Positions 37,513 to 59,893 of a stretch of 64,000 nucleotides of DNA are shown here, piece by piece (positions within the stretch are counted from its first letter, which is position 1; each line of letters begins with the position of its first letter). Where the stretch lies: positions 124,001 to 188,000 of the forward strand of contig NZ_WIXI01000039.1 in assembly GCF_009617585.1 (NCBI RefSeq), read 5' to 3'. The notes beneath the pieces were generated by a model, which saw nothing but the letters and a program-made list of their open reading frames with translations, searched no databases and was not told the DNA's origin. This stretch comes from Endobacterium cereale (lineage in GTDB: Bacteria > Pseudomonadota > Alphaproteobacteria > Rhizobiales > Rhizobiaceae). The translations under genes and the position numbers were made by a program.

Positions 37513-37557
37513 TGTTACTGTTACAGCGGGACGCCATTCGGCGATGTAACAGTAACA
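37513..37557 (-). promoter_or_regulatory. Regulon motif site A (two inverted 13-mers)
   Basis: TGTTACTGTTACA (37513-37525) and TGTAACAGTAACA (37545-37557) are exact reverse complements 19 bases apart. The nearer copy is 58 bases from the start codon at 37454. The site also lies about 80 bases upstream of the divergent small gene at 37636, so it may serve both. Confidence 0.75.
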
Positions 37558-37635
37558 TTCTCGCATTTTGTGCGCGGCCATGGACGAATGAATGGAGACC
37601 AGAATTAAGTACCCGACGAAGGAGTGCCCCAAACC

Positions 37636-37935
37636 ATGGGCTCGTCCAGAGATACCGCTCATCGCGGTCTGCTGAAACTAATGCTGCGGTTGCCACGGCG
37701 ACGCGGCGACCTTCAACATCTCTGGTCGCACGATGACACCTTCCCAGCCTTATGCGAGGCGTATGACGACGCGACCACCACTCTGGAGCGACTCGTCTTG
37801 AACCCCCGTCCCCAAGAAACAGGCTTGCAGGAAGAATATCGGGGACTATGCCGCGACCTCGAAGATGACGTCGAGCGACATTGTCGTCACAAAGCGACAC
37901 GATCCCAATCTGAGCCACCCGGCCACAAGCGTTAG
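37636..37935 (+). CDS. Hypothetical protein (99 aa)
   Basis: A 99-residue soluble, acidic-to-mixed protein read from ATG 37636 behind AAGGAG (rather distant, 13 bases). The middle (PALCEAYDDATTTLERLVLN, then EYRGLCRDLEDDVERHC) resembles short rhizobial proteins with an 'LCEAYeeA...LerL' helical pattern. Function unknown. An alternative GTG at 37624 lies too close to the ribosome site. It is divergent from the outer-membrane-type gene across motif site A. Confidence 0.5.
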   Translation: MGSSRDTAHRGLLKLMLRLPRRRGDLQHLWSHDDTFPALCEAYDDATTTLERLVLNPRPQETGLQEEYRGLCRDLEDDVERHCRHKATRSQSEPPGHKR

Positions 37936-38030
37936 CTATTGAGACAGACTATCATATTTACCAATTGCTACTTTAGGTGAAGTCGAGCATATTCGCGCTA
38001 GCTCACGTACGGACATCACGAGGTGGCGAC

Positions 38031-39737
38031 ATGGTTGCGAAGGGCGTAGGGGAAACGGATGCCGTACCGGATGAAGTGGCGAGAATGGAGGCCGAAAGGC
38101 TGCTTGCCGACCCCCGCCTTCACGTTTCCGATCGACATAAACTGTTTCTCAGGTATATCATCGATGCACTGTTCGAGGGCCGCAGCGACTCGGTGAAGGC
38201 ATACTCGATCGCGATCGACGTCTTCAACAGACCCCCGACGTTTGACCCGTCTTCTGATCCCATCGTCCGAATAGAAGCAACACGTCTTCGCGAAGCCCTT
38301 GCAAAGTATTACGAACTGCTTGGCGAAGAGGAAGGTGTTCGACTTGACATCGCGCGGGGGCGATACATTCCTATCTTCAGTCCACGCTCTCACAAGCCCT
38401 GCCTCGAAGAGATATGCTCCGAGGACGAAGTTCTTCCTCCTGAAACCAGACCAGTGCCAAACCTTGGTCGGGCACTCCCGATAAAAGGCACTCTGGTCGC
38501 GATTTTCGCTGTGACGGTAGCCGTTGGCGGCAGTTATGCGGCGTACCGTCAACTTACTGTTTCTCGTGCCGACACGGACAGGCCAGTCGTCGAACTGAAC
38601 TTGACGGGGTCACCCGCTGGCTGGGAACCTGACATGCTGGCCGAAAACCTGTCCTCATCGATGACCCGTTTCGGAACGGTGCGGCTGAGGGACACGCCGA
38701 AGACACGCGGGGCCACTACTTCCGTCGGCCAGTCCTCCTATGTCGTAACCGTCAGATATACCGAGGATGCGAACGGCGCTTCCCTCCGCTCGCGCGTTTC
38801 TGATCCGGCGACCGGAGAGACGATCTGGACGAGCGAGGATCGCAGGAATACCTCCGACAAACCGAGGGAGCTGGCTCTCGAAGAGCTTGTATATGCGGTT
38901 TCTCGCAAGATCGCAGGCCCCGTGGGTATCGTGAACGTCTCGGAGTTACGGCAAAATCTTCCGATATCGACCACAGGGAATATTTGCGTCCTCAGGGGAG
39001 AAACTGCGGTCGAGCAACGCAGTCGTGGCGGCCTGAAGGCCGTTCGTCCGTGCCTTGAAGCGACCATCGCGGCCGACCCCGGCGATGCGGATGCAATGGC
39101 CACGCTCGCGCGGGTCTATCTCTGGACAGGACGCGCCGACGGAGACCCAAGCTTCTTCGCCCGCGGCCTGGAGCTCGCCAATCGCGCAACAACCTCCGCG
39201 CCTTCGTCCCCGCGGGCAGCGCTTGCTCAACTGGCGACCCAGTACCAGGTCGGCCAGAACGATACCTCGATCGCCGCGGGACGCCGCGGGCTCGTCCTCA
39301 ACCCCGAGAACGCCGACCTCCGCGCCAAGCTTGCCATGGCCGTCTTCCTGAGCGGTTACTGGGAAGAAGGCGTGCGTCTCGCGCGCGAAGCCGTCGATCT
39401 CGCAGGCGAGAGCATCCGTGACGCGAGCTTCGTTATGATCTTGGATGCTTATCGCAATGGCCAGTACGCCGAGGCCGCATCTCTAGCGCGCCAGATTCCT
39501 GCCGCAGATACTCCGACAGCGATACTGAAGCTCGCAGCCGTCGCCCGGCTGGGCGACAAGACGGCGACGAGCAAGGAAATCGCGACCGCCCGCATGCAGC
39601 ATCCGGACCTGGATAAGGTCGTGTCGGCGATGCTCACGGGAACCAGATATAATTCCGATCTGGAAGATGCATTACGCCAGGGCATCGAAGCGTCGGGGCT
39701 GACGTCGCCCGAATTCGCCGCGAACGGGCCATTGTAA
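38031..39737 (+). CDS. Membrane-anchored TPR signalling/regulatory protein
   Basis: A 568-residue protein. Residues about 10-115 form a module I know from 'adenylate-cyclase-like' TPR proteins: RHKLFLRYIIDALFEGRSDS, VKAYSIAIDVFNRPPTFDPS, SDPIVRIEATRLREALAKYY and a final GRYIPIF. A single membrane segment follows (TLVAIFAVTVAVGGSYAAY, near residue 155), then a periplasmic region with TolB-like and TPR-type helices (AMATLARVYLWTGR, AKLAMAVFLSGYWEEGVRLA). ATG at 38031 has GAGGTGG upstream. No cyclase domain is present. The one-pass layout with a cytoplasmic head recalls CadC/ToxR-like regulators, which makes it my candidate regulator of the motif-bearing units around it. Confidence 0.7.
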   Translation: MVAKGVGETDAVPDEVARMEAERLLADPRLHVSDRHKLFLRYIIDALFEGRSDSVKAYSIAIDVFNRPPTFDPSSDPIVRIEATRLREALAKYYELLGEEEGVRLDIARGRYIPIFSPRSHKPCLEEICSEDEVLPPETRPVPNLGRALPIKGTLVAIFAVTVAVGGSYAAYRQLTVSRADTDRPVVELNLTGSPAGWEPDMLAENLSSSMTRFGTVRLRDTPKTRGATTSVGQSSYVVTVRYTEDANGASLRSRVSDPATGETIWTSEDRRNTSDKPRELALEELVYAVSRKIAGPVGIVNVSELRQNLPISTTGNICVLRGETAVEQRSRGGLKAVRPCLEATIAADPGDADAMATLARVYLWTGRADGDPSFFARGLELANRATTSAPSSPRAALAQLATQYQVGQNDTSIAAGRRGLVLNPENADLRAKLAMAVFLSGYWEEGVRLAREAVDLAGESIRDASFVMILDAYRNGQYAEAASLARQIPAADTPTAILKLAAVARLGDKTATSKEIATARMQHPDLDKVVSAMLTGTRYNSDLEDALRQGIEASGLTSPEFAANGPL

Positions 39738-39745
39738 CTGTAACA
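39733..39745 (+). promoter_or_regulatory. Regulon motif site B
   Basis: TGTAACTGTAACA, a perfect direct repeat of TGTAAC, overlapping the stop codon of the TPR gene and ending 78 bases before the SphA-like start. It is followed by TCCTTGC, as at site F. Confidence 0.75.
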
Positions 39746-42080: not shown

Positions 42081-42116
42081 TGTTACCCTCAAGTTACGTA
42101 GCCTGTAACTGTAACA
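42081..42116 (+). promoter_or_regulatory. Regulon motif site C
   Basis: TGTTAC (42081), GTTAC (42093) and the perfect TGTAACTGTAACA (42104-42116) lie together, the last ending 89 bases before the sulfatase start and followed by AGCTTACC. Confidence 0.75.
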
Positions 42117-42205: not shown

Positions 42206-43861
42206 ATGAGTAAGCCTGTCTCTCGGAGACTTCTCGCCGCGACGGCCGCGGTCGTTATGACCCTGACCTCGGCCTCTATCGCCTCCCCCGCCCTTGCACA
42301 ACAAGCTGCTCCTGCCCCCGCGACGGGAACCACGCCGCCCGCCGCGGCAAACAATGCTCGACCCAATATCCTTGTCATCTTCGGCGACGACATCGGGCAG
42401 ACGAACGTCAGCGCCTATTCGATGGGCGTGGTCGGGTACAAGACGCCGAACATCGACCGTATCGCCAAAGAAGGGATGATGTTCACCGACTATTACGCCG
42501 AGAACTCCTGCACGGCGGGTCGATCGACGTTCATCACCGGACAGGCATGCCTGCGCACCGGGCTCTGCAAGGTCGGAGCGCCCGGCGCGCCCGTCGGCCT
42601 GCAGGCTGGAGACATGACAATCGCGCAAGCCCTCAAACCGTTGGGTTACGCCACGGCCCAGTTCGGCAAGAACCATCTCGGCGACCGCGACGAGTATCTT
42701 CCCACGCGGCACGGATTCGACGAATTCTTCGGCAACCTCTATCACCTGAATGCAGAGGAAGAACCCGAAGCACCTTATTGGCCGAAGGATGACACGGAGT
42801 TCCTGAAGGCCTACGATCCGCGCGGGGTCATTAAAGCGACAGCCGACGGCAAGGTCGAGGATACCGGGCCACTCACCACAAAGCGGATGGAAACGATCGA
42901 CGACGACACCACGTCGGCGGCCATCGATTTCATGAGCAGACAGGTCAAGGCCGAAAAGCCGTTCTTCACCTGGATGAACGCGACGCGGATGCACATATTC
43001 ACCCACGTCCGCGAGAGCATGCGTGGCCAGAGCGGCATGCCCGGCAACGAGTACGGGGACGGTATGGTCGAGCACGACGGCCATGTCGGAAAGCTGCTCA
43101 AGGCTCTTGATGATCTCGGCATCGCCGACAATACGATTGTCGTATACACGACCGATAACGGGCCAAACCAGTTCTCTTGGCCTGATGCGGCAACGACCCC
43201 CTTCCGCAGCGAGAAGAACACAAACTGGGAAGGTGCCTTCCGCGTGCCTGCCCTCGTAAGATGGCCAGGCCGTATCCAGCCCGGTCAGGTCTCGAATCAG
43301 ATGTTCTCCGGTCTCGACTGGTTCCCGACCCTCGTGGCAGCGGCGGGCGACCCTGACGTAAAGAGCCGTCTGCTGACAGGCTGGACACCGGAAGGGAGTA
43401 CGACCAGCTTCCGCAACCATCTCGACGGCTACAACCAGCTCGACTACATCACGGGCAAAACAGAAACGAGCGCCCGCAAAGACTTCTACTACTTCGACGA
43501 TGACGGTGATCTGGTGGCGACCCGTTACGATGACTGGAAGGTCGTCTTCAAGGAGCAGCCTGCGCCTGGGGGCTTCCAGGTATGGCAGACCCCGTTCACC
43601 ACGTGGCGGATACCCAAGCTGTTTAACCTGCGTATGGACCCATACGAGAGGGCCGACACAGTCTCCGACCAGTATAATGACTGGCTGGTTCGCAACGATT
43701 ACCTGCTTGTAAAAGGACAGCTACAGGGGGCGGCGTTCCTGGAAACCTTCGTAAAATATCCGCCGAGCCAGCGTGTGGCGAGCTTCAACATCGAAGGCGT
43801 TCGCGCCCAGGTGGACAAGGCGATCGACCAGTCGTTCAAGGATCGCGGCATCGAGAAGTAG
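42206..43861 (+). CDS. Exported arylsulfatase
   Basis: A 551-residue sulfatase with a signal peptide (RRLLAATAAVVMTLTSASIA...ALAQQ) and a Pro/Ala linker. Metal ligands are in FGDDIGQTNVSAYS and TTDNGPNQFSW; the catalytic site is NSCTAGRSTFITG with Cys102 in a C-x-A-x-R motif, the substrate for formylglycine formation. ATG at 42206 follows AAAGGAAT. It would hydrolyse sulfate esters in the periplasm. The maturation enzyme is encoded 6.4 kb downstream in a unit with the same promoter motif, and the MoxR/VWA genes follow directly. Confidence 0.9.
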   Translation: MSKPVSRRLLAATAAVVMTLTSASIASPALAQQAAPAPATGTTPPAAANNARPNILVIFGDDIGQTNVSAYSMGVVGYKTPNIDRIAKEGMMFTDYYAENSCTAGRSTFITGQACLRTGLCKVGAPGAPVGLQAGDMTIAQALKPLGYATAQFGKNHLGDRDEYLPTRHGFDEFFGNLYHLNAEEEPEAPYWPKDDTEFLKAYDPRGVIKATADGKVEDTGPLTTKRMETIDDDTTSAAIDFMSRQVKAEKPFFTWMNATRMHIFTHVRESMRGQSGMPGNEYGDGMVEHDGHVGKLLKALDDLGIADNTIVVYTTDNGPNQFSWPDAATTPFRSEKNTNWEGAFRVPALVRWPGRIQPGQVSNQMFSGLDWFPTLVAAAGDPDVKSRLLTGWTPEGSTTSFRNHLDGYNQLDYITGKTETSARKDFYYFDDDGDLVATRYDDWKVVFKEQPAPGGFQVWQTPFTTWRIPKLFNLRMDPYERADTVSDQYNDWLVRNDYLLVKGQLQGAAFLETFVKYPPSQRVASFNIEGVRAQVDKAIDQSFKDRGIEK

Positions 43862-43917
43862 CATCATAGGACGCGTCGTGTCGGCGCGCCCTTCTCATCC
43901 ACTTGCGAGAGAACGCT

Positions 43918-44895
43918 ATGGCTCCGCGCGACGACATTCTCGAACTTGGCAAGCGTATCGGCCAGTCCATCATCGGTCAGGATCAGATGGTCGAGCGGCT
44001 TCTGCTGGGGCTGCTTGCAAACGGTCATCTACTGGTAGAGGGCCTCCCAGGCCTCGCGAAGACACGGGCGATCAAGAGCCTAGCGAAAAATCTCGAAGCG
44101 GAACTCTCGCGGATACAGTTCACGCCCGACCTTCTGCCTGCCGACATCACCGGTTCCGAAATCTACTTCTCCGACGGAAGCAAAGGCGAGTTCAAATTCC
44201 AGCAGGGGCCAATCTTCGCCAACCTGATCCTCGCCGACGAGATCAACCGCGCTCCAGCGAAGGTGCAGTCGGCCTTGCTGGAGGCCATGGAAGAACATCA
44301 AGTGACGGTGGGCGGTAAGAGCTATCCCCTGCCCGACCTGTTCATGGTGATGGCGACGCAGAACCCGATCGAGCAGGAAGGCACCTATCCACTTCCAGAA
44401 GCGCAACTCGACCGTTTTCTGATGCATGTCGAAGTCGGCTATCCGGACGAGGCTTCGGAGGCTGCCATCATGCGTCTCAACCGGGACGAAGAGAACGAGG
44501 CTCATGGCGGTCCGAAGACAAATCCGCCGCAGAAGCTCGATCCAAAAGCCGTGTTCGACGCGAGAAGGGAGATCGGAACTGTCACGGTCTCGGACCCGGT
44601 CGAGAAATACATGGTCGCCCTGGTCTTCGCAACGCGCTATCCGGAACGCTACGACAAGGACCTGGCCAATCTCCTGCAGGTCGGTGTGAGCCCGCGCGGG
44701 GTCATCGGTCTCGACAAGGTTTCACGGGCTTATGCCTGGCTCAAAGGCCGTGACTACGTCACGCCGGATGATGTGAAGGCGATTGTCCACGGGGTCTTCC
44801 GCCACAGGCTGATCCTGTCCTACGAGGCGCATGCGTCGAGCACCACGCCGGACCAGGTCATCGACCGGATCGTGAAACTGGTGGCCGTGTCATGA
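43918..44895 (+). CDS. moxR: MoxR family AAA+ ATPase
   Basis: A 325-residue AAA_3 ATPase: Walker A VEGLPGLAKTRAI (near residues 41-49), Walker B ILADEINRAPAKVQSALLEA, sensor region VMATQNPIEQEGTYPLPEAQ, and a C-terminal lid. MoxR proteins work as chaperones with VWA partners to assemble or activate envelope complexes. ATG at 43918 (GAGAGAAC upstream). It starts the series moxR-DUF58-DUF4381-VWA-VWA/TPR-BatD, whose genes overlap by 4 to 14 bases or by one base, and it lies 56 bases after the sulfatase. Confidence 0.92.
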   Translation: MAPRDDILELGKRIGQSIIGQDQMVERLLLGLLANGHLLVEGLPGLAKTRAIKSLAKNLEAELSRIQFTPDLLPADITGSEIYFSDGSKGEFKFQQGPIFANLILADEINRAPAKVQSALLEAMEEHQVTVGGKSYPLPDLFMVMATQNPIEQEGTYPLPEAQLDRFLMHVEVGYPDEASEAAIMRLNRDEENEAHGGPKTNPPQKLDPKAVFDARREIGTVTVSDPVEKYMVALVFATRYPERYDKDLANLLQVGVSPRGVIGLDKVSRAYAWLKGRDYVTPDDVKAIVHGVFRHRLILSYEAHASSTTPDQVIDRIVKLVAVS

Positions 44896-45827
44896 GCGGC
44901 GGTGTCTACGTCTCGACCGAAGGCCTGGTGAAGCTGGAGACGCAAGCACGCGACCTGAGTTTCGTGCAGAAGGCACGCAGCCACCAGCAGCTTGCGGGAC
45001 GCATGAATTCGACGATGCGGGGCCGTGGACTGACCTTCGAGGAATTGCGTAACTACCTTCCAGGCGACGACATCCGGTCGATCGACTGGCGCGTCACAGC
45101 GCGGACGACGCGCCCTGTCGTAAGGGTCTATTCCGAGGAAAAGGAGCGCCCTGCCCTGATCGTCGTCGACCAGCGCATCAACATGTTCTTCGGCAGTCGC
45201 CGCGCGATGAAATCGGTAACGGCGGCGGAAGCGGCCATGCTGTGTGCCTGGCGGATACTGGGTTCGGGCGACAGGGTCGGCGGCTTTGTCCTCGGCGATA
45301 CGGATACGGAGGAATTGAAGCCACACCGTAGTCGCAACGCAGTCATTGCCTTTGCAGACCGGATCGCCACAAAAAACAATGAACTGAGAGCCAACGCCGG
45401 CGCGTCACGGGAGACCAGCCAGTTAGACGCAGTTCTGGAAACCGTCGCCACCCTTGCGCATCATGACCACCTCATTCTCTTGATCTCTGACCTCGATGGC
45501 CATACGCCACGCACGCGCGACCTCCTGCTGAGGCTGTCCTCCCGAAACGACGTGATCTGTCTCCTCGTCTACGATCCCTTTCTGCTCGCCCTGCCGAGCT
45601 CGGGCCACATTGTCGTGAGCGGCGGCGGACCTCAGGCGGAACTGGCATTGAAGACAGCGAGTACCCGCTCATCGATCGACGCCTTCGCCCGCAGCCGCGG
45701 TCGGGAATTGCTCGCGTGGCAAAACGAACTCGGACTACCGATGCTGCCGATCTCGGCTGCGGAAGAGACCGCGCCGCAACTTCGTCGCCTGCTGGAACAG
45801 TCCGCCTGGCGACAACGGAGGCGCTGA
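44892..45827 (+). CDS. DUF58 domain protein
   Basis: A 311-residue protein with the DUF58 signature FEELRNYLPGDDIRSIDWRV, then RTTRPVVRVYSEEKERPALI, and a VWA-like remainder (LILLISDLDGHTPRTRDLLL). It overlaps moxR (ATGA). DUF58 proteins are constant partners of MoxR in Bat-type operons and probably present the MoxR client at the membrane. Intact. Confidence 0.9.
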   Translation: MSGGVYVSTEGLVKLETQARDLSFVQKARSHQQLAGRMNSTMRGRGLTFEELRNYLPGDDIRSIDWRVTARTTRPVVRVYSEEKERPALIVVDQRINMFFGSRRAMKSVTAAEAAMLCAWRILGSGDRVGGFVLGDTDTEELKPHRSRNAVIAFADRIATKNNELRANAGASRETSQLDAVLETVATLAHHDHLILLISDLDGHTPRTRDLLLRLSSRNDVICLLVYDPFLLALPSSGHIVVSGGGPQAELALKTASTRSSIDAFARSRGRELLAWQNELGLPMLPISAAEETAPQLRRLLEQSAWRQRRR

Positions 45828-46342
45828 TGGAACCCTCGGGTCCAAACCCTGCATTGCGGATGGCGCTTCAATCGCTACACGACATCGTTTTGCCTCCGCC
45901 TGTTTCGTGGTGGCCGCAGACATGGGGCTGGCTACTGGTCGCCGCATTGGTTGTCGGGACATGCCTCGTCGCGGCATTGAGATGGGCCAGACGATACCGA
46001 GCGAATGCCTATAGACTTGAGGCGCTGTCGATGCTGGGACCTATCCAGCATCTTCTCAGCCAGCCGGCGACCCGTCGCGAAGGCGTGCGCCAAGTCGGAG
46101 AACTCTTGAAGCGGACCGCGCTCGCGGCATGGCCGCGTGTCGAGGTGGCCTCTTTGACGAACGACGACTGGGTCGGCTTCCTGAAAAAATACGGCGACAC
46201 CGATACCCATGCGGTCGAATGGCTCCTGAACGACTTCGAGTACCACAGCGCTGATTGTATCGCACATTTGCCATCGCGAGTTGGCGATGATGTCATCGTT
46301 GCCACGCGGTCATGGATCGAGCGACACGATGTATCAGCTTGA
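45827..46342 (+). CDS. DUF4381 membrane protein
   Basis: A 171-residue protein with one membrane segment (TWGWLLVAALVVGTCLVAAL, near residues 30-50) preceded by the DUF4381 motif LHDIVLPPPVSWWPQTWGW. The rest is soluble. ATG at 45827 overlaps the DUF58 stop (TGATG). It is found in most moxR-VWA operons between DUF58 and the first VWA protein, and probably scaffolds the complex. Confidence 0.85.
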   Translation: MEPSGPNPALRMALQSLHDIVLPPPVSWWPQTWGWLLVAALVVGTCLVAALRWARRYRANAYRLEALSMLGPIQHLLSQPATRREGVRQVGELLKRTALAAWPRVEVASLTNDDWVGFLKKYGDTDTHAVEWLLNDFEYHSADCIAHLPSRVGDDVIVATRSWIERHDVSA

Positions 46343-50249: not shown

Positions 50250-51227
50250 ATGGCTTTGGCATTCGAGAACGCGAATGATGTCACAGGGGATGAAGGCGTG
50301 GTTTGGGTTCCCGGTCGCACCTTCAAGATGGGATCGGACGACCATTATCCGGAAGAGGCTCCTGCCCATCCCGTCAAGGTGGATGGTTTCTGGATATCGG
50401 AGACCCCCGTCACCAACAGGCAGTTCAAGGCCTTTGTGGAGGCAACGGGCCATGTGACCGTCGCGGAAAAGGCACCCGACCCTAAGGATTATCCGGGCGC
50501 GAAGCCCGAGATGCTAAAGCCGGGCTCGCTCGTCTTCACGCAGCCGAAAGCGGTGAACGGTCCGGACATCGGGCAATGGTGGGCGTTCAAGTTCGGCGCG
50601 ACCTGGCGCAGGCCGCTCGGGGGCTTGAGCGACCTGCGCGGCAAACTCGACCATCCTGTCGTTCACGTCGCCTATACCGACGCGCTTGGATATGCCACCT
50701 GGGCAGGAATGAGCTTGCCCACGGAAGCCGAATGGGAGCTGGCGGCCCGCGGAGGCTGCGATGGCACAGAATTCTCCTGGGGCGACGAACTCACGCCGGG
50801 CGGGGTCGCAATGGCGAACACCTGGAGCGGGACGTTTCCGACCCACTCCACCAAACCGAAGGGGCATGAACGGACCTCACCCGTGCGAACCTTCCCGCCA
50901 AACGCGTTTGGCCTTTACGACATGATCGGCAACGTCTGGGAGTGGACGAGCGACTACTGGTCGACCCGCCATCTCGAAGCTGCAAAGCACTCGTGCTGCA
51001 TCCCAAGCAATCCGCGCGGCGAACTGACCGAGGCGAGCTACGACCCGGGGCAGCCTGCGATCCGTATCGCCCGGCGCGTGCTCAAGGGCGGCTCGCATCT
51101 GTGCGCGCCGAACTATTGCCGCCGTTACCGCCCTGCCGCCCGTCATGCCGAGCCGGAAGACACGTCCACCAGCCATGTCGGTTTCCGCTGCGTGAAGCGG
51201 CCCATCGAAGAAGGAGAAGCGAAATGA
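50250..51227 (+). CDS. Formylglycine-generating enzyme (sulfatase modifying factor)
   Basis: A 325-residue FGE/SUMF1-fold protein: WVPGRTFKMGSDDHYPEEAP, ETPVTNRQFKAFVEATGH, LPTEAEWELAARGG, NVWEWTSDYW and the catalytic block LKGGSHLCAPNYCRRYRPAA with Cys285 and Cys290, the copper/redox cysteines of true FGEs. It oxidises the cysteine of C-x-P/A-x-R motifs in sulfatases to formylglycine. There is no export signal, so it acts before sulfatase secretion. Start ATG 50250 with GGAGG. It pairs functionally with the sulfatase at 42206 although the two are in different units. Confidence 0.92.
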   Translation: MALAFENANDVTGDEGVVWVPGRTFKMGSDDHYPEEAPAHPVKVDGFWISETPVTNRQFKAFVEATGHVTVAEKAPDPKDYPGAKPEMLKPGSLVFTQPKAVNGPDIGQWWAFKFGATWRRPLGGLSDLRGKLDHPVVHVAYTDALGYATWAGMSLPTEAEWELAARGGCDGTEFSWGDELTPGGVAMANTWSGTFPTHSTKPKGHERTSPVRTFPPNAFGLYDMIGNVWEWTSDYWSTRHLEAAKHSCCIPSNPRGELTEASYDPGQPAIRIARRVLKGGSHLCAPNYCRRYRPAARHAEPEDTSTSHVGFRCVKRPIEEGEAK

Positions 51228-52240
51228 GAAACCGGACGCTCGCCGAAGAGCCTCTTGTGGCAGCCGTCGCAGTGGCCCTAATCCTTTTACTCAGCGGCCT
51301 GCTACGCCCGGCGCTCGCTCAGGAGGTCCTTCCCTCATGGAACGACACCGCTGCTAAGAGCCGCATCGTCGAATTCGTCAAGGCGACCGTGACAGAAGGC
51401 GGAGACGGATACGTCGCGCCGTACGATCGTATCGCCGTCTTCGACAACGACGGAACGCTATGGTCCGAGCAGCCTATCTATTTCCAGTTCGGATTCATGA
51501 TCGACCGCGTCAAGACGCTCGCCCCGCAGCATCCAGACTGGAAGACCAAGGAGCCGTACAAGTCAATCCTCGACGGCGATCCGATGGGTGCGCTTAAAAG
51601 CGGTGAAAAGGGCATCGTCGATCTGGCAATGACCACCCATGCCGGGATGACGACGGACCAGTTCTCGAAAATCGTCACTGACTGGTTCGCCACGGCAAAA
51701 CATCCCAAGACTGGCAAGCCTTATGACGAGATGACTTTTGTGCCGATGCGCGAACTTCTCGATTATCTGCGCTCCAATGGCTTCAAGACCTACATCGTCT
51801 CCGGCGGCGGGGTCGAGTTCATGCGGCCGATGACCGAGAAGATGTACGGCATTCCTCCCGAGCAGGTCGTCGGCAGCACGATCCTGACGGAATATGCTAT
51901 CGTTGGTGACGTGCCTGTTCTCAGGCGTCTACCGAAGATCGATTTCGTCGATGACGGCAAGGGCAAGCCTGCCGGCATCAACAAGTTTATCGGCAGAAGA
52001 CCGATCTTCGTCGCGGGCAATTCCGACGGCGACTACGAGATGCTGCGCTGGGTTACCGCAGCCAAGGGACCCGGTTTTGCGATGATCGTCCACCACACCG
52101 ACGATGCCCGCGAAGTCGCGTACGACCGCAAAAGCGCGATCGGCAAGCTCGACAAGGCGCTTGACGAAGCAGAGCGCAGGAACTGGCTTGTCGTTGACAT
52201 GAAAGCGGACTGGAAAAGAGTTTTCGCGTTCGATAACTAG
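51224..52240 (+). CDS. Exported HAD-family phosphatase
   Basis: A 338-residue HAD-like hydrolase with an N-terminal hydrophobic signal (VAAVAVALILLLSGLLRPALA). Motif I is VFDNDGTLW (nucleophile Asp near residue 73), motif II YIVSGGGVEF, and motif III/IV FVAGNSDGDYEML. This is the phosphoserine-phosphatase-like group often called 'haloacid dehalogenase' in rhizobia; the substrate is unknown. It overlaps the FGE stop (ATGA) and is followed 16 bases later by an MscS-type channel, so the three form one unit behind site D. Confidence 0.85.
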   Translation: MRNRTLAEEPLVAAVAVALILLLSGLLRPALAQEVLPSWNDTAAKSRIVEFVKATVTEGGDGYVAPYDRIAVFDNDGTLWSEQPIYFQFGFMIDRVKTLAPQHPDWKTKEPYKSILDGDPMGALKSGEKGIVDLAMTTHAGMTTDQFSKIVTDWFATAKHPKTGKPYDEMTFVPMRELLDYLRSNGFKTYIVSGGGVEFMRPMTEKMYGIPPEQVVGSTILTEYAIVGDVPVLRRLPKIDFVDDGKGKPAGINKFIGRRPIFVAGNSDGDYEMLRWVTAAKGPGFAMIVHHTDDAREVAYDRKSAIGKLDKALDEAERRNWLVVDMKADWKRVFAFDN

Positions 52241-52256
52241 CCGGAAGGCCGCCGCC

Positions 52257-54167
52257 ATGAAATGGATCGCTGCGCTTCTGTTTTTCCTATCGATGTCTGT
52301 CCACGTCCATGCGCAGGATGTTCCACGCCCTCAGAAGATCGACGACCTTGTCGGTCTTCTGCAGGACCCCGAAGTGCGCTCCTGGCTGGAAAAGGCACCT
52401 GCGGCTACCTCGCCGACCACTGTCCCGGCAAAGAACGGTCTGGCTGCCTGGGAAACCATGACGCGTGAGAGGCTCGACGGCATCGTTCGCGCGATCCCGA
52501 GAATACCTACTGAAGTTACGACGGTATCCAGTCGGATAAGGGCGCAAGCACTGTCCTATGGAGGGCTACCTGTCTTTGCGATTTTCGCGGGATTGGTTGC
52601 TGTCGGCTTGGTCGCAGAGAAGGTTTTCTCCCGATCGCACACAGGGAGCCGGGTGATTGACCGCCTGTTAGCGGTCGGCGTCTTCACCGCCACGATGGCT
52701 ATCGTTTTCTTCGCGTTCGACTGGCCTCCTCTTCCGCGCATCGTGCTGATGGTGTCCGTGCTGGCGCTCGTGGCCTACCGGGCGATCTCGGTCCTCATCG
52801 ATGCCGCAGGGATGCCGCCCCTATCGAGAAAACGCACAAAAATTTTCGTCGGCGGAATCGTCACTGGAACTGGACTGGCCGTTCTGGGAGAACCACTGTC
52901 GGTCGACCCGACCACGACGGCAGCCGTCTCGTTCTGCGTCTCGCTCGTCCTTCTGCTGATCGCTCTGGAGGGTGCGATGTCCCTTCCCGCACGCTCATTC
53001 CGGACACGCATTGCGATATGCCTCGCTATCCTGGTCGTTTGGGCGCTCTGGTGTCTCGGCCTGCGTGGTCTGTTCTGGCTGGCGGTCTTTGCAATGTCGC
53101 TTCCGTCCGTCCTGCGGTTCTTCGGTAAAACAGTCGCCGAACTCCTCCCTGGCGACACCGAAGAAACGAAGCGCGTTCTCCTGGTGCGGGGTAGCCGGGC
53201 GGCCGTGGTCATCATTGCCGCCGCGTGGCTGGCGACCGTCTGGCGGCTCGATCCGACCTCGCTCGTTCACAGCGACCCCCGTGTGGCTTCCCTTTCCTAC
53301 GGACTTCTGAAAAGCGTCGTCATCATGCTTCTGGCGGACCTCGTATGGCATCTAGCCCGGTCGTGGATCGACCGGAAGCTTCTGGCATCGAACTCAGGTG
53401 CAAGTGCAGACGAGTTGGCCCGAAAAGGTCGGCTGCGGACATTGTTGCCGATCTTCCGCAACGTGCTGGCGGTGATGGTAGCGGTCATCGCGGGATTGGT
53501 CGTGCTCTCCGAACTCGGTATCGAAATCGGCCCCCTGATTGCGGGAGCTGGCGTGTTTGGGGTGGCGCTCGGCTTCGGTTCGCAGACCCTGGTCAAGGAC
53601 GTCATCAGCGGCGTGTTCTACATGCTGGACGACGCGTTCAGGGTCGGCGAGTACATCCAGGCGAAAAGCTACAAAGGCACGGTCGAGGGGTTCAGCCTCC
53701 GATCAGTTCGTCTTCGCCACCACCGCGGACCTGTCTATACGGTTCCCTTCGGCGAACTCGGTGCCGTCGAAAACATGAGCCGCGACTGGGGGATCGTGAA
53801 GTTCCGCGTATCCGTCAGCTATGATGCAGACGTGGAGAAGGCTCGCAAGCTCACCAAGAAGATTGGGGCTGCGCTCGCGGAAGACCCAGAGTTTTCGCCG
53901 CTCTTCATCGAACCCCTGAAAATGAAGGGGGTCGAGGAGTTTGGCGACTACGGCATGGTCCTAAGCTTCGGAATGACGCTGCGTCCGAGCGGCCTGCAGT
54001 CGATGATCCGCCGACGTGCCAACCTGATGATCCGGGAAGCCTTCAAGGAGAACGGGATCGAGTTCGCCCAGCCGATGGTGCAAGTCGGCGCGGATGAAAA
54101 GCAGGTAGCAGCATCGGCTGCGACGCGTCTGCAGGAGGCAAAATCAGCTGCTGCGGCACCAGCCTGA
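52257..54167 (+). CDS. MscS-family mechanosensitive channel, large form
   Basis: A 636-residue protein: signal peptide (MKWIAALLFFLSMSVHVHAQ), a periplasmic region, about ten hydrophobic segments, then the MscS pore and beta domain (LIAGAGVFGVALGFGSQTLV, KDVISGVFYMLDDAFRVGEY). The cytoplasmic C-terminus is standard (RANLMIREAFKENGIEFAQP). It is larger than E. coli MscS, like MscK/YnaI-type channels. It opens under membrane tension to protect from osmotic downshock, which fits an envelope-related regulon. Confidence 0.88.
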   Translation: MKWIAALLFFLSMSVHVHAQDVPRPQKIDDLVGLLQDPEVRSWLEKAPAATSPTTVPAKNGLAAWETMTRERLDGIVRAIPRIPTEVTTVSSRIRAQALSYGGLPVFAIFAGLVAVGLVAEKVFSRSHTGSRVIDRLLAVGVFTATMAIVFFAFDWPPLPRIVLMVSVLALVAYRAISVLIDAAGMPPLSRKRTKIFVGGIVTGTGLAVLGEPLSVDPTTTAAVSFCVSLVLLLIALEGAMSLPARSFRTRIAICLAILVVWALWCLGLRGLFWLAVFAMSLPSVLRFFGKTVAELLPGDTEETKRVLLVRGSRAAVVIIAAAWLATVWRLDPTSLVHSDPRVASLSYGLLKSVVIMLLADLVWHLARSWIDRKLLASNSGASADELARKGRLRTLLPIFRNVLAVMVAVIAGLVVLSELGIEIGPLIAGAGVFGVALGFGSQTLVKDVISGVFYMLDDAFRVGEYIQAKSYKGTVEGFSLRSVRLRHHRGPVYTVPFGELGAVENMSRDWGIVKFRVSVSYDADVEKARKLTKKIGAALAEDPEFSPLFIEPLKMKGVEEFGDYGMVLSFGMTLRPSGLQSMIRRRANLMIREAFKENGIEFAQPMVQVGADEKQVAASAATRLQEAKSAAAAPA

Positions 54168-54184
54168 CGCGGCGATGGGCCGCC

Positions 54185-54208
54185 GTTACGTTACCGTAAC
54201 TGTAACGG
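54185..54208 (+). promoter_or_regulatory. Regulon motif site E
   Basis: GTTACGTTAC then GTAACTGTAAC, flanked by CC/GG, forms an extended dyad of four GTTAC/GTAAC half-sites ending 67 bases before the DUF2092 start. Followed by CCTTCC. Confidence 0.7.
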
Positions 54209-54275: not shown

Positions 54276-55043
54276 ATGTCCAGACCAAGACTAAAACGTC
54301 TGACGGCGACCGCGGCCCTCGTGACGGTGCTTATGGCAACGTCCGCTGGCGCTCAGGATCAAGGAATGGAGGAACCGCGGATCGAACCTGAAGCCGTCGA
54401 AGCGCTGAAGGCGATGGGCGAGCACTTGCAGTCGATGCAATCGTTCAAGATCACCGCACGCACGACAGCCGAGGTCGTCCTGGAAACCGACCAGAAACTA
54501 GAGATCGGCAGCGAGGCGACCTACGAGGTGAAGCGGCCGGATCGGCTGCGCATCGATCTCGCAACGGATGTCGTCCACGGCGAACTCGTCTACGACGGCA
54601 AGACCCTGGTCTATGCATCGCCCGACCAGAAGGTCTACGCGCAGGTTCCGGCCCCCGCGACAATCAAGGAAACACTCGAACACGCGGCGCAAAAGTACGA
54701 CCTCGCCTTCCCCTTGGCTGACTTGTTCGCCTGGGGTACGCCGGACGCGCCGACCGATCTGATCAAGGAAGGCTTCCTTGTCGGACACGCCTTCGTCAAC
54801 GGCAAGGAAACGGATCACTGGGCGTTTCGAGGTCCTGACCAGGATGCCGAGATTTGGATCGCGACGGAAGGCAGCGCCCTGCCTTTGAAGGTTTCGCTCG
54901 TCGACCGCGACGACATGACGAGACCGCGTATCACGACGGTTCTCGAGTGGACCGAAAACGCCGAGATCGCCGACGACGTCTTCCAGTACAAGCCGGAGGA
55001 AGGCACCGAGAAAATCCGCTTTCTGAAGGAGGCAGGCAAATGA
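54276..55043 (+). CDS. DUF2092 periplasmic protein
   Basis: A 255-residue exported protein of the DUF2092 family: signal peptide ending TSAGAQDQG, helix EAVEALKAMGEHLQSMQSFK, then LolA/LolB-like strands (SEATYEVKRPDRLRIDLATD; YDGKTLVYASPDQKVYAQVP). The fold suggests binding of a hydrophobic ligand or lipoprotein in the periplasm, but this is inference. ATG at 54276 follows GAGGAGGACGAAGCG. It overlaps the next gene (ATGA). Confidence 0.82.
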   Translation: MSRPRLKRLTATAALVTVLMATSAGAQDQGMEEPRIEPEAVEALKAMGEHLQSMQSFKITARTTAEVVLETDQKLEIGSEATYEVKRPDRLRIDLATDVVHGELVYDGKTLVYASPDQKVYAQVPAPATIKETLEHAAQKYDLAFPLADLFAWGTPDAPTDLIKEGFLVGHAFVNGKETDHWAFRGPDQDAEIWIATEGSALPLKVSLVDRDDMTRPRITTVLEWTENAEIADDVFQYKPEEGTEKIRFLKEAGK

Positions 55044-55636
55044 GGAAGCCAGGTATCCTGTTCAGCGCTCTTCTCGCGACGGCGCTTATAGCACCGCAGA
55101 TCGCAGAGGCCCGTGGCGGCTTCGGCGGGCGGATGCCGCGGATGAACTTCGGCGGTGGGGGAATGCATGCAGCAGGCATGCACCACTTCAATGCGCCGGT
55201 GCACATGCAGCCACGCTTCCACCCCGTTCAGCATCCCCCGCACGTTATGCACCCGCGCCCACCGCACCCGCCGGGTCCAGGACCGGGGCCGCATCCCTCC
55301 GGGCACCATCCCCATCCACCGATGCCAGGTCCGCACCCTGGCCCGGGACCACACCCGCCAGGCCCGGGTCCCCGCCCCTTGCCACCTCCACCCCGGCCGC
55401 TACCACCGCCACCTCCGGGTCCGTACTGGCCGGGTTATTGGGGCCCAGCCGCCGCGTGGGGTGCCGCAACTGCCGCCACCGCCATTGCCGTTGGAACAGT
55501 TATCGCCACGCTTCCACCGGAATGTGTCACGGTCGTCGTGAACGGGGTCAGCTACCGTGACTGCGGCGGACGCTGGTTCGAACCGCGATACGACGGGCAC
55601 ACGGTCGTTTACGTCGCCGTTGCCGCCCCGAGATGA
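55040..55636 (+). CDS. Exported Pro/His/Gly-rich protein (198 aa)
   Basis: A 198-residue protein with a signal peptide (ILFSALLATALIAPQIAEA), a Gly/Met/His-rich segment (residues 25-65), a long Pro/His/Gly low-complexity tract (about residues 70-135, dominated by P-H-P, P-G-P and P-P-P), then a hydrophobic Ala-rich segment (AAAWGAATAATAIAVGTVI) and a C-terminal domain with PECVTVVVNGVSYRDCGGRW. The last block resembles short periplasmic 'RcnB/YXXPP-like' surface modules. The His-rich tract could bind metals. Co-translated with DUF2092 (ATGA). Function unknown. Confidence 0.65.
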   Translation: MRKPGILFSALLATALIAPQIAEARGGFGGRMPRMNFGGGGMHAAGMHHFNAPVHMQPRFHPVQHPPHVMHPRPPHPPGPGPGPHPSGHHPHPPMPGPHPGPGPHPPGPGPRPLPPPPRPLPPPPPGPYWPGYWGPAAAWGAATAATAIAVGTVIATLPPECVTVVVNGVSYRDCGGRWFEPRYDGHTVVYVAVAAPR

Positions 55637-55640
55637 ACTC

Positions 55641-55667
55641 ACGGCTCCGGCGCAACGCCGGAGCCGT
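55641..55667 (+). terminator. Strong hairpin terminator
   Basis: ACGGCTCCGGCG-CAA-CGCCGGAGCCGT, a perfect 12-bp stem with a 3-base loop, 5 bases after the stop and followed by TTTC. It should end the DUF2092 unit. Confidence 0.75.
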
Positions 55668-55721
55668 TTCGGGTATCTGCGTAAAGATACCGGGAAGCTC
55701 CGCTGATCGACAGGAGGCCTG

Positions 55722-56867
55722 ATGTCGGCCGAAGTTCTCGACGACGACGAGCGGCTCCGCATCATGCATGGAGGCCCGTTCTACGATCTTATGGCGAACA
55801 TCGGTTTGCGCAAGCGCGGCTGGAGGGCGCTGGTCCTGATGAACCTGTGCTGGGTAATGCCCGCCCTGCTACTTTGGCTGGGTCGGGATGAAAGCGGTTT
55901 ACAGCATTTTCTTCGTGACTGGGGTGCCTGGTCGAAGTTTCTCATCGCCCCCGTTCTTCTGACGCTTGCCGAGAAACCAATCGGCTTTGCGCTGGATGAA
56001 TGTATTTCGCTAATTTTCCGCATACCAGTCGTGGCAACACAATCGATGCAGGATGCCCGAAAGGCGCTCGCCAATGCGAGGTCGCAGACCTCGGCAGTTC
56101 TTCCGGAACTGGCGTGCCTACTGCTGGCGCTCATGGCCACGGGCATCAACGCGGCAAACTTCACCTACGGTTCGGCACCTGCCTGGGCGATCAATAACGG
56201 AACGTTCACACGGGCGGGTCTTTGGTCCCTCGTCCTCGGAAACACGATCTACTGGTTCTTGCTGACCCGCCTCGTCTGGAAGCACGTCATCTGGTTGCGC
56301 TTCCTGTCAAACGCCGGGCGCTGGCATCTCCGCCTCGCAGTCACTCACCCGGACGGGCATGCAGGTTTGGGTTTCCTCGGGTTTTACCCGGCAGGCTACA
56401 GCCTCTTCGTTCTGGCCGCGAGCGCCGTCGTCGCGTCAGGAGCGGGCCACGTCATGCAGCGGGAGGCCGTCACGCCGCTTCTCTTCACGGCTGTCTGCGT
56501 TGCATGGCTGAGCGTTGTCCTGGTGTACTTCGCCATCCCACTCGTGCCATTCGGCACGCAGGTCGCCCGATTGAAACGAAAAGCGATCTTGATGAGCCTG
56601 AGACGAGCCATGGCCTTCGAACGGTTCAAGGAGCGCGAAGCCCTGGAGACAAATCTGTTCGAAGACGAAGCCGAGGACAGGGGTATCGTTATGAAGGATG
56701 TGAAGCCCGTCTATCTTGCCGCTCGGAACGTTTCCGCTCTTCTCGTCAACCGCAGGAACGCGCCGGCGGTCTTTATCCCTGCCCTGGCCCCGTTTGTTGT
56801 CGTGGGAGGATCATACCTGCCGTTCTCTGAACTGGGACCGATTATAAAACGGCTTCTGCTGCTATAA
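55722..56867 (+). CDS. Polytopic membrane protein (381 aa), unknown
   Basis: A 381-residue protein with six or so membrane segments (RALVLMNLCWVMPALLLWLG; PELACLLLALMATGINAANF; GLWSLVLGNTIYWFLLTRLV; YSLFVLAASAVVASGAGHVM; LLFTAVCVAWLSVVLVYFAI; AVFIPALAPFVVVGGSYLPF). I do not recognise the family. ATG at 55722 has AGGAGG at a good distance. It follows a terminator and has no motif site directly upstream, so it may have its own promoter or depend on read-through. Convergent with the HlyD gene. Confidence 0.65.
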   Translation: MSAEVLDDDERLRIMHGGPFYDLMANIGLRKRGWRALVLMNLCWVMPALLLWLGRDESGLQHFLRDWGAWSKFLIAPVLLTLAEKPIGFALDECISLIFRIPVVATQSMQDARKALANARSQTSAVLPELACLLLALMATGINAANFTYGSAPAWAINNGTFTRAGLWSLVLGNTIYWFLLTRLVWKHVIWLRFLSNAGRWHLRLAVTHPDGHAGLGFLGFYPAGYSLFVLAASAVVASGAGHVMQREAVTPLLFTAVCVAWLSVVLVYFAIPLVPFGTQVARLKRKAILMSLRRAMAFERFKEREALETNLFEDEAEDRGIVMKDVKPVYLAARNVSALLVNRRNAPAVFIPALAPFVVVGGSYLPFSELGPIIKRLLLL

Positions 56868-56901: not shown

Positions 56902-58041
56902 TTAGCGTTCGAAGACAAGGAAGTTTTCCCACGATCGAATCCTCAACAGGATTTTCCGGATCAGCGCGAATTCACTCCAGTGCGACGTGTATATCGCGAC
57001 CTCGGCCGTCGCGCCTCCCGGCAGCTCGAATGCGGAGAGATCGTCCATTGGTTCAAGGACAGCAATGACGCGGCCAGGGCCGAACGATGCGGTGGGAGAC
57101 AGAAGAGAGCCAGCAGGCTCGAGTTGGCCTTCCGCCATGAACTTCACGATTTTCGTGACGCGCGCTCGGAAAACTCGTCCGGGCACTCCGGCGAATGCGA
57201 TTTCCGCGTCGTCACCTTCCGCGACCCGCTGCAGCGCGACCTGGTCGAAGGAGGCTGCAAAAATCTGTCGGTCGGTGTGGATGAAGGTCATCACTGGCTT
57301 AAGCGGCAGCGAGACCGCCATCATTCCGGGATGCAGGAACACCTGTGCGGCATACCCGTCGGTCGGAGCCCGGTAGACGCTCTGCTCGAATTCGAACTTC
57401 GCCCGTTCGAGCTCTGCATCGAGCTGGGCGACATTGGTGTCGATCCCGTCGATCTGGCTGTTGGCGGCGAGCCTCGCCTGCTCGGCCTGCGCGGTTGCAG
57501 CTGCAAGGGCAGCCTCCGACGCGAGATAGGCATTTCTCAGGTCTTCCACCTGTTCGGCCGAAAACGGCGACATGCGCGGGTTCCGATTGGCCGCCGCGTG
57601 ACGATCGTAGTCGCCTTTCGCCTGGTCGCGGCTGGCGGCGGCCGACTGGACGGAGGCTTGCGCAGTACGCAGGGCCGCCTGACGCTCGGCCACGTTCTGG
57701 CCCGCATCAGCAAGAGCGGCCTGCCGCCGCCGTACCATGTACTCGAACGGTCTGGGGTCAAGCCGGAACAGCACGTCCCCCTTTTTGACTGCCGTATTGG
57801 CGAGGACCGGAACTTCGACAACCTGTCCGTTGACCGCCGGGCTAATCGGTGTCGCATAGAAATAGATGCGTCCGTCCTTGGAGAAAGGATGGTTGTAGTT
57901 CATCACGACGAGAATGGCGCCGATTAAAAACACACCTCCGACCACGGCCGTCGTCGCTGTCCATTTAGTGAGCGGAACCCGAAGGAATCGGAACGCGACA
58001 ATGCACACCGCGCCGTAGATCAAGCAAAGAAGCGTCGTCAT
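56902..58041 (-). CDS. HlyD/EmrA-type membrane fusion protein (YiaV/YibH-like)
   Basis: A 379-residue periplasmic adaptor: two N-terminal hydrophobic segments (LLCLIYGAVCIVAFRFLRVP; VVGGVFLIGAILVVMNY), biotinyl-lipoyl-like halves (VPVLANTAVKKGDVLFRLDP; YRAPTDGYAAQVFLHPGMMA), a coiled-coil hairpin between (AALRTAQASVQSAAASRDQA) and a beta barrel. It overlaps the DUF3302 gene by 4 bases. In E. coli the same pair (YiaW-YiaV, also YibI-YibH) occurs without a dedicated pump. It is probably part of the DUF1254-DUF3302-HlyD unit controlled by site F. Confidence 0.87.
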   Translation of the reverse strand: MTTLLCLIYGAVCIVAFRFLRVPLTKWTATTAVVGGVFLIGAILVVMNYNHPFSKDGRIYFYATPISPAVNGQVVEVPVLANTAVKKGDVLFRLDPRPFEYMVRRRQAALADAGQNVAERQAALRTAQASVQSAAASRDQAKGDYDRHAAANRNPRMSPFSAEQVEDLRNAYLASEAALAAATAQAEQARLAANSQIDGIDTNVAQLDAELERAKFEFEQSVYRAPTDGYAAQVFLHPGMMAVSLPLKPVMTFIHTDRQIFAASFDQVALQRVAEGDDAEIAFAGVPGRVFRARVTKIVKFMAEGQLEPAGSLLSPTASFGPGRVIAVLEPMDDLSAFELPGGATAEVAIYTSHWSEFALIRKILLRIRSWENFLVFER

Positions 58042-58340
58042 GTCGGTTCCCGGCTTTCCTCAAGACGTCGTTCGATCTCCGTCACACGCGCGTCGAGCGT
58101 TTGATTTCCGGCCCCCCAGCCACGGTCCGGGCGCCAAGCCATCGCCCATATCCACAAAAACGGCCAGATGGCGTGCAGGGTGAACAAGCTCACCCACCCT
58201 GCCGCCATGATGGCGTCCTGGTGAGGATGGTTGCGGCGCCTGGCGATCTCGTAGGGGATGTCGTGGATGGCGACGATCCCGTAGATAAACGTCAGCACGA
58301 CGAAGATCAGCACGCCAAGCGAAAGATAGTCCAGCCACAT
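58038..58340 (-). CDS. DUF3302 inner-membrane protein (YiaW/YibI-like)
   Basis: A 100-residue protein with two membrane segments (YLSLGVLIFVVLTFIYGIVA; GWVSLFTLHAIWPFLWIWAM) separated by HDIPYEIARRRNHPHQDAI, the DUF3302 signature. A short C-terminal coiled coil follows (TLDARVTEIERRLEES). ATG at 58340 is preferred to an upstream start because of AAAGGAGG about 10 bases before it. It is the constant partner of the adjacent HlyD-like adaptor. Confidence 0.87.
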   Translation of the reverse strand: MWLDYLSLGVLIFVVLTFIYGIVAIHDIPYEIARRRNHPHQDAIMAAGWVSLFTLHAIWPFLWIWAMAWRPDRGWGAGNQTLDARVTEIERRLEESREPT

Positions 58341-58403
58341 AAAGAGGGCCTCCTTTGCCGTTTGGAGCGCCCTGACTTTGCCAGAGCGCTCCAACCGAGT
58401 TGA

Positions 58404-59789
58404 CTATTCCGTGCGCTCCACCTGCGGAGACTTCCATTCGCCGGACAGCAGCTCCGGCTTCGGCAGGTAGTACCGCATCGCCATCATGAACGGTCCGGCG
58501 GGGGCCGGCAGCCAGTTGGTTTCCTTGTCGCCACCCGGGTTGTCGTGCTGGATGTAGATGGTCAGTCCGCCGTCCCTGTCCTTCTTGAGGTTTGGCAGCA
58601 TCGGCGAGTTGACGAGGTAGCGGTCTATCGGATTGTCGACCAGCAACTGGCCCGGAAGGTCGTACATGGTGAGCGACCAGAAGGCATTGACGGGCGGGAA
58701 GTCACCGCCCTTGAACCGTAGCGCGTACTTGCCCTTCGACCCGTCCAGCGCCTCGCCCTTGTCGTCCTTCTCGTAGATCGGATAAAGCGCTTCTTCTTTC
58801 GAGTTGGCGCCGATCCCAACCTGCGTGCCGGCAGCGCGTGCGACGTAGTCGTTTTTCAGGAACTCGCGTGTGCCGAACAGATTGGCGCTGTCGCCTTTCA
58901 ACGTCTCGCGGAGATCATCGATCTGCTTCTGGCCTTCCTTCATTCCATCCGTCAGAGCGGCCTTCATGTCCGGTGACAATCCGGCGACATCGAACTTCTC
59001 GCCTGCCTTGAGGCCGAGCTGCTCGAAACGCGCGCGGATCGCAGTCTCGGAGGGGTGCGTCGGCGTGAACTGCAGCAGGAACGCCATCACGTCGAAAAAC
59101 TCCGGGTTGGTCTTCTGCTCGGCAGGAGCGATGGGCCTGATCCATTCCGTCTCGGGTAAGGGCAATGCGGGTTTGCCCTCGAAGACGGACAGGGGCTGGA
59201 GCTTGTAGCCCGCCTGGATTTTCTTGACGTTCTCTAGATCGTCGGCGTTGAAGAGCTGCGTGCGACCAACCACGTTGACGAACTGCGTTTCCGACCGGAT
59301 GACCTTTGTGATGCCGTCTGGCGCTTCGCCTTTCCAGCCCGGCCCGGCGATCAGGAACTTTCCGCCGCCATTCCCCGTCGTGCGGGTTCCGATATAGTCG
59401 AAATTGAAGGTGTAGAGGTCCATTAGCTGAAAGACGAAATAGCGGTCTTTCTCAATCTCGGGGACGGTGATGACCATCGGCTCCGCGCGGAGATCGAGAC
59501 CCATGAACGTGTAGGGCGTATCTGAATTGGGCGTCACGAAGCCCTTGTCATCAGGTGTGAACACGCGCGCGATGTTAAGGACGCTATTGAACGGGCCTTT
59601 GTATTCTGGGCTTTTGGTGTTCACCGAAAACGCGTAAATCGTTGCGTAGTCGCTTACCATGGGCACGCCGTAGACATAGGCTTCCTTGGCGATTTCGGTT
59701 GCCTGGCTGCGATCCAGCTCGGCGGCGAATGAGGGAAAGGCGGCCATAAGCCCGAAGGCCAGGCCACCGAACGCGCGGCGGGTGATCAT
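58404..59789 (-). CDS. DUF1254/DUF1214 exported protein
   Basis: A 461-residue protein with a twin-arginine-like signal (MITRRAFGGLAFGLMAAFPS). The DUF1254 domain (EIAKEAYVYGVPMVSDYATI; FVTPNSDTPYTFMGLDLRAE) is followed by the DUF1214 domain (FWSLTMYDLPGQLLVDNPID; GGLTIYIQHDNPGGDKETNW). ATG at 59789 has AAGGAGAG upstream. Homologues are periplasmic and of unknown biochemistry. It is divergent from a second DUF1254 gene, with site F between them. Confidence 0.87.
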   Translation of the reverse strand: MITRRAFGGLAFGLMAAFPSFAAELDRSQATEIAKEAYVYGVPMVSDYATIYAFSVNTKSPEYKGPFNSVLNIARVFTPDDKGFVTPNSDTPYTFMGLDLRAEPMVITVPEIEKDRYFVFQLMDLYTFNFDYIGTRTTGNGGGKFLIAGPGWKGEAPDGITKVIRSETQFVNVVGRTQLFNADDLENVKKIQAGYKLQPLSVFEGKPALPLPETEWIRPIAPAEQKTNPEFFDVMAFLLQFTPTHPSETAIRARFEQLGLKAGEKFDVAGLSPDMKAALTDGMKEGQKQIDDLRETLKGDSANLFGTREFLKNDYVARAAGTQVGIGANSKEEALYPIYEKDDKGEALDGSKGKYALRFKGGDFPPVNAFWSLTMYDLPGQLLVDNPIDRYLVNSPMLPNLKKDRDGGLTIYIQHDNPGGDKETNWLPAPAGPFMMAMRYYLPKPELLSGEWKSPQVERTE

Positions 59790-59849
59790 GCTGGTCTCTC
59801 CTTGTTGAGGATGCCGGATCATGACGATCACCAGAACGCGCGGGAAGCA

Positions 59850-59893
59850 TGTTACAGTAACAACGGCGCTGTTACGTCGGTGTTACGGTTACA
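59850..59893. promoter_or_regulatory. Regulon motif site F (divergent promoter)
   Basis: TGTTACAGTAACA (59850-59862, perfect dyad), TGTTAC (59870-59875) and TGTTACGGTTACA (59881-59893). The outer copies lie 60 and 57 bases from the two divergent DUF1254 start codons, and the plus-strand copy is followed by TCCTTGC, as at site B. Confidence 0.78.

Follow-up and report, generated by a model that had tools for sequence, protein, structure and literature searches.

Membrane-bound one-component regulators of the ToxR/CadC type combine a PF00486 winged helix with a transmembrane segment and a periplasmic domain, and response regulators of the OmpR/PhoB type are known for operators that are direct repeats of 11-bp period. 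Here we describe a gene cluster in a 64-kb stretch of the genome of Endobacterium cereale (contig NZ_WIXI01000039.1; hereafter the window, with coordinates counted from its first base), in which a 13-mer, TGTWACNGTWACA, termed motif A, recurs before the genes. Our reading, which we consider probable on the strength of sequence comparisons, is that this 13-mer is the operator of a protein encoded in the cluster, termed REG, which would be a membrane-anchored one-component regulator with a diverged winged-helix domain. A preliminary description of this DNA had proposed that one DNA-binding protein controls all the units preceded by the motif. We find that proposal supported, given that the exact sites are confined to the cluster and that most readable orthologous promoters keep the motif, and REG is the best candidate for the protein.

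A pattern scan of the window recovers all seven exact sites at the positions first given for them (37513, 37545, 39733, 42104, 50180, 59850 and 59881), and the statement that the motif lies nowhere else in the window holds even when one mismatch is allowed (dinucleotide shuffles give a mean of 0.06). Over the whole genome (6,114,623 bases in 51 contigs, 98.96% complete) the exact count is again seven, all of them in the cluster, against a single exact site for the reversed control pattern. The exact motif is thus not scattered at random: 7/7 sites fall in one 22-kb cluster, and all seven lie within 22 kb of REG, which argues for REG as the binder. At one mismatch a further six sites appear, spread over five other contigs and none of them in the cluster; the reversed control gives 80.

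The sites at 37513 and 37545 are, as had been reported, an exact inverted pair, each the reverse complement of the other. The motif had been described as a direct repeat with a 6-bp period. Because the half-site GTWAC is its own reverse complement, this is one of two equal readings, and at 59850 (TGTTACAGTAACA) the repeat is perfectly inverted rather than direct. Comparison favours a palindromic TTAC-N-GTAA core over a true 6-bp direct repeat, and we suggest that the palindrome replace the earlier description. The version with four half-sites, placed at 54185, is real (54183-54208, CCGTTACGTTACCGTAACTGTAACGG, consisting of GTTACCGTAAC and two more half-sites) but degenerate, being at best two mismatches from the 13-mer. 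Counted to likely start codons, the distance from site to start is 57–89 bp, in agreement with the 57–90 bases first given; however, the starts used (37454 on the minus strand, 37636, 39824, 42206, 50250, 54276, 59789 on the minus strand, and 59951) define eight units rather than seven. CTTNC, said usually to follow the site on the plus strand, does so at 6/8 window sites, the exceptions being the divergent pair 37513/37545. The cluster spans 36660 to 61303, and its genes and sites are as follows.

36660..37454, minus strand: gene for a protein of no recognised family (no match in the Pfam scan), by our guess of outer-membrane type; orthologues at 80-85% adjoin the motif pair in Rhizobium johnstonii 3841 and Agrobacterium bohemicum
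37513..37525, minus strand: motif A site TGTAACAGTAACA, 58 bp before gene 36660-37454, conserved at orthologous loci
37545..37557, plus strand: motif A site before sm37-REG, without CTTNC, a predicted autoregulatory site
37636..37935, plus strand: sm37, a small protein of 99 residues and neighbour of REG, with homologues beside REG-type genes
38031..39737, plus strand: REG, predicted membrane-anchored regulator from analyses of its domain, hydrophobicity and TPR part
39733..39745, plus strand: motif A site before 39824 (a Phenol_MetA_deg-type protein, then a DUF900 hydrolase)
42104..42116, plus strand: motif A site before the sulfatase gene (ATG at 42206)
42206..43861, plus strand: sulfatase with a CTAGR active-site-type motif (CxAxR)
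43903..50184, plus strand: MoxR, DUF58, two VWA proteins and a BatD-like protein
50180..50192, plus strand: motif A site before the FGE-family gene at 50250
50250..54167, plus strand: FGE-sulfatase-family protein, HAD protein and MscS-type channel
54183..54208, plus strand: degenerate four-half-site version before the DUF2092 gene at 54276
54276..56867, plus strand: DUF2092 protein (54276-55043) and two open reading frames (ORFs) without a Pfam match
56902..59831, minus strand: DUF1254/DUF1214, DUF3302 and HlyD-type proteins
59850..59862, minus strand: motif A site before the DUF1254/DUF1214 gene (likely ATG at 59789)
59881..59893, plus strand: motif A site before the second DUF1254/DUF1214 gene (likely ATG at 59951)
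59897..61303 (ORF), plus strand: second DUF1254/DUF1214 protein, likely start 59951

Class I sulfatases that are activated by formylglycine-generating enzyme carry the active-site motif C/S-x-P/A-x-R, and CTAGR is found in the window sulfatase and in the six homologues checked. A large hybrid histidine kinase at 32209-35556 adjoins the cluster; no homologue of it was found in the stretches examined from orthologous clusters.

For comparison we examined the corresponding clusters of R. johnstonii 3841, A. bohemicum, the isolate AFS086932 and R. sullae, the last of which has two copies, recovered as fragments. The divergent motif pair at sm37-REG is kept in 5/5 copies (3841, A. bohemicum, AFS086932 and both R. 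sullae copies), as is the site just downstream of REG (5/5), and the sulfatase site is kept in all four sulfatase copies that have a readable upstream region. At the end of the BatD gene, 3841, A. bohemicum and two R. sullae fragments have a site as well; for AFS086932, the stretch read stops just short of the fifth exact site (82303). The motif is kept at most readable orthologous promoters of these four genomes, those not recovered at orthologous places in the clusters read being the DUF2092 and DUF1254 promoter sites. Nor was the degenerate version at 54183 found at up to one mismatch in the orthologous gap of A. bohemicum.

The association of motif and protein extends to other genomes. Scanning genome contigs for two motifs 5–35 bases apart, blind to REG, returned 45 loci, of which eight are of rhizobial type (L092, L093, L095, L100, L108, L109, L118 and L123, from seven genomes). 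A REG orthologue at 54–67% identity lies beside the pair in 5/45 loci, all five among these eight, and in R. johnstonii 3841 the orthologue (57%) lies just outside the stretch fetched around the pair; therefore, five of the seven rhizobial-type genomes have a close REG orthologue. The remaining two are AFS066368, with family members at no more than 36%, and Aureimonas leprariae, with none. At the 37 non-rhizobial loci a tblastn search for REG gave no match in stretches of up to 8 kb; the spacing of the two sites is a multiple of 6 bases at 24 of these, suggestive of coding or simple repeats, and in the two checked genome-wide (L102 and L112) the motif sites were not near the family members.

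Across nine genomes checked for both motif and protein, 35/47 exact sites have a REG-family protein no more than 20 kb away, where by our own arithmetic the family size would lead us to expect roughly 1, bearing in mind that sites within a cluster are not independent. All sites are near the family in 3841 (9/9, divided between two clusters that each include a REG-type gene), A. bohemicum (5/5) and AFS086932 (5/5), and most are in USDA 2370 (7/8), R. sullae (7/11, the other four being on contigs with fragments of this gene cluster) and AFS066368 (2/3); none are in A. leprariae, a Hellea metagenome-assembled genome (MAG) and a Kordiimonadaceae MAG (0/2 each). The 396 other genomes of the order contain 60 exact sites, at least nine of which are within 20 kb of a family member (G071, G207, G222, G316 with two, G320 with two, G385 and G409); in G409 the distance from the site to the listed protein match downstream is 12 bp. 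At one locus in G207 (L308, G207:C107:17500-20400) two REG-type domains stand in tandem and a single exact motif separates them, 38 bp upstream of the second domain.

REG itself begins with a domain of about 110–120 residues, followed by a hydrophobic helix and a TPR C-terminus. Its first 120 residues are 34–51% identical to those of 46 paralogues in 40 paralogue stretches, and the three most hydrophobic 19-residue windows of the protein all fall in residues 148–171 (mean up to 1.88). An AlphaFold2 (AF2) model of the domain, made from seven sequences, has a mean predicted local distance difference test score (pLDDT) of 82, three of the five models being poor (52–58); it has helices at residues 14–26, 34–48, 57–63 and 78–97, and strands at 102–107 and 114–119 forming a beta hairpin. 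The AF2 model of full-length REG (mean pLDDT 57) served only for the rough order of elements. When its profile is compared with 19 Trans_reg_C domains of the same genome (one of the 20, L194, being left out because its translation was from the wrong strand), the REG domain scores 23.3 with the conserved RLR helix aligned, whereas 200 column shuffles reached 17.4 at most and reversed alignments stayed under 14; this gives some support to a remote similarity to OmpR-type winged helices. REG and three paralogues gave no match to PF00486 (Trans_reg_C) at E up to 10, two of these paralogues showing only weak matches to other families (E 0.03 and 0.19), and the Pfam scan found no Response_reg (receiver) match in REG. 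A search of PDB sequences with the REG domain by hmmsearch gave a meaningless best E of 1.2. REG is the sole cluster protein with evidence for a DNA-binding-like domain, with the proviso that some ORFs without a family match cannot be judged.

At a threshold of E up to 1e-10, the REG family is present in 130/397 genomes of the order and in 6 genomes outside it among 398 drawn from the phylum. Upstream regions were taken for 143 members (148 unique members minus five orthologues, the regulator of the window's genome being included once, as L203). TGTTAC occurs in 38 of these regions (11.8 in dinucleotide shuffles), GTA-N3-TAC in 27 (3.4) and GTA-N7-GTA in 28 (5.8); we relied on the shuffles because the alternative background, 632 upstream regions of other genes, probably holds many spurious ORFs. 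The paralogue loci contain five exact motif A sites; 120 permuted palindromes averaged 0.12, and not one of them reached five.

The only other REG-family member in the window's genome, REG2 (C30:10841-12367), lies in the neighbourhood of a related motif, GTACGTTACNGTAAA (motif B). Motif B has seven exact and three one-mismatch sites genome-wide, where about 0.05 exact sites would be expected by chance (our own arithmetic, assuming equal base frequencies), and all ten lie in three clusters, one of them beside REG2: C30:10841-20214 (L312), C8:42753-43035 (L310) and C14:542589-550580 (L311). These clusters contain homologues of the window regulon (FGE 73%, HAD 67%, sm37 42%, MscS 49%, sulfatases 26-65%, DUF900 73%, DUF1254 26-32%) and additionally DUF3300, DUF2950 and an autotransporter-type ORF. 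The sites of motifs A and B do not overlap in the genome, and CTT stands three bases past GTAAC in all 10 motif B sites. Two further genomes each have a REG2 relative (L045 and L168) surrounded by three copies of motif B. REG2, L045 and L168 are mutual nearest neighbours in the domain tree and share the presumed recognition helix RIE[IM]SRLRS; an exception is L217, which has one motif B site and a RIEAGRLR helix.

Several results weigh against the assignment of motif A to REG. On the side of the protein, no Pfam or NCBIfam model covers the N-terminal domain, Foldseek found no significant solved structure for the domain model in the PDB (best E 0.28), and the hhalign probability of a winged-helix match is only 25%. 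On the side of the DNA, exact motif A is present at only 3 of the 40 paralogue loci (up to 20 kb); the count at one mismatch is 8, whereas permuted palindromes average 2.0 and 6/120 of them reach 8. An expectation-maximisation motif search over the upstream regions scored as high on the reversed-sequence control, and its logos were not used. Over several genomes CTTNC follows only 16/37 of the motif A sites examined (CTT is there in 18/37). Proteins that adjoin motif A come from all parts of the domain tree, and they do not all share one presumed recognition helix, 11/16 reading RIEAxRLR. Since five of the 16 differ, and since many family members beside neither motif also read RIEAxRLR, we regard the helix signature as a lead only. 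The rarity of exact motif A, together with the enrichment of core dyads upstream, suggests to us that subfamilies read variants of one core.

The remaining adverse results bear on the alternative that survives best, namely that the motif is bound by a different, unlinked transcription factor, REG being just one more product of the cluster. For 51 of the 60 exact sites counted elsewhere in the order, the matches listed include no family member within 20 kb, and many of these are single sites. Furthermore, Aureimonas leprariae (G435, L169) has the gene cluster, with two exact and three one-mismatch sites, yet no REG-family protein was found in its genome at E up to 1e-3; there the regulator may have been lost or replaced, or be absent from the assembly, or the binder may be another protein. 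(In this genome motif sites also lie before an aquaporin-type gene, MIP.) Against an unlinked factor, in the window's genome the paralogue REG2 is accompanied by a related motif of its own, and motif A lies upstream of distant REG-type genes in G409, G207, G222, G316, 3841 and R. sullae. On balance we consider this alternative unlikely.

We give still less credence to the idea that sm37 is the DNA binder, or an obligatory co-regulator, with REG as its sensor. While sm37 is conserved beside REG at many loci and adjoins the motif in A. leprariae, where REG is missing, it is absent (E up to 1e-3) at 8/10 motif-bearing loci with distant REG-type genes (L046, L048, L166, L167, L170, L171, L172 and L308), and the other two (L072 and L165) show weak matches only. 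L308 counts for little here because the stretch is only 2.9 kb. The Pfam scan assigns sm37 to no family; possibly it is a partner protein. That the 13-mer is instead a promoter element read by an extracytoplasmic function (ECF)-type sigma factor, as its narrow range of positions before genes might suggest, is very improbable given that it is palindromic, that CTTNC, where present, could itself be the -35 element, and that the cluster ORFs that were scanned matched no sigma factor family.

We return to REG as the protein that binds motif A, and outline how it might act; its binding, dimerisation, membrane topology and autoregulation, and activation rather than repression, are all inferred from sequence. 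REG would probably be anchored in the inner membrane as a one-component regulator, with its diverged winged-helix domain at the N-terminus in the cytoplasm, binding TTAC-N-GTAA, probably as a dimer, 57–89 bp before the starts. At many promoters the site ends two bases before CTTNC, a possible weak -35 element, and this adjacency makes it most likely that REG activates there in class II fashion. It would probably also control its own operon, sm37-REG, where CTTNC is absent. The extracytoplasmic TPR part would receive the signal, for which our guesses are the state of the envelope or a sulfated substrate, and the cluster would then be activated.

A broader proposition, which we hold less firmly but still think rather likely, is that REG founds an unrecognised family of membrane-anchored transcription factors that is common in the order, has a diverged winged helix beyond the reach of Pfam and NCBIfam, and reads variants of TTAC-N(1-2)-GTAA. 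The window's genome would then contain two paralogous sulfatase/envelope regulons kept apart by their operators, motif A and motif B, perhaps because the presumed recognition helix reads RIE[IM]S in the REG2 group in place of RIEAT. If this is true, a large group of proteins known to the family libraries only for their TPRs would acquire a function, a DNA motif and a target set. The proposition would also provide a compact model for the insulation of duplicated membrane regulators, with two paralogues, two non-overlapping motifs and two homologous gene sets in one genome, and it makes a sharp prediction of seven exact sites per motif in about 6 Mb. In the PMC literature, which most subscription journals lie outside, we found no published work on the REG family or motif A, and no characterised member of the family.

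Of the described systems, the OmpR/PhoB response regulators resemble REG in the remote similarity of its DNA-binding-like domain, but REG has no receiver domain, and motif A differs from operators of 11-bp period. The likeness to regulators of the ToxR/CadC type lies in the predicted architecture: a winged-helix-like domain, probably cytoplasmic, one hydrophobic helix and a putative extracytoplasmic domain, with no receiver. REG also shows the remote profile similarity to PF00486 domains of its own genome, and the upstream regions of its family include a GTA/GTA period of 10 bp. Unlike members of that type, REG has an N-terminal domain that PF00486 does not recognise even at E up to 10, a predicted operator that is a short TTAC-N-GTAA palindrome, and a conserved small neighbour gene. 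Because of the failed PF00486 test we do not file REG under the ToxR/CadC type, although it would work in a similar way.

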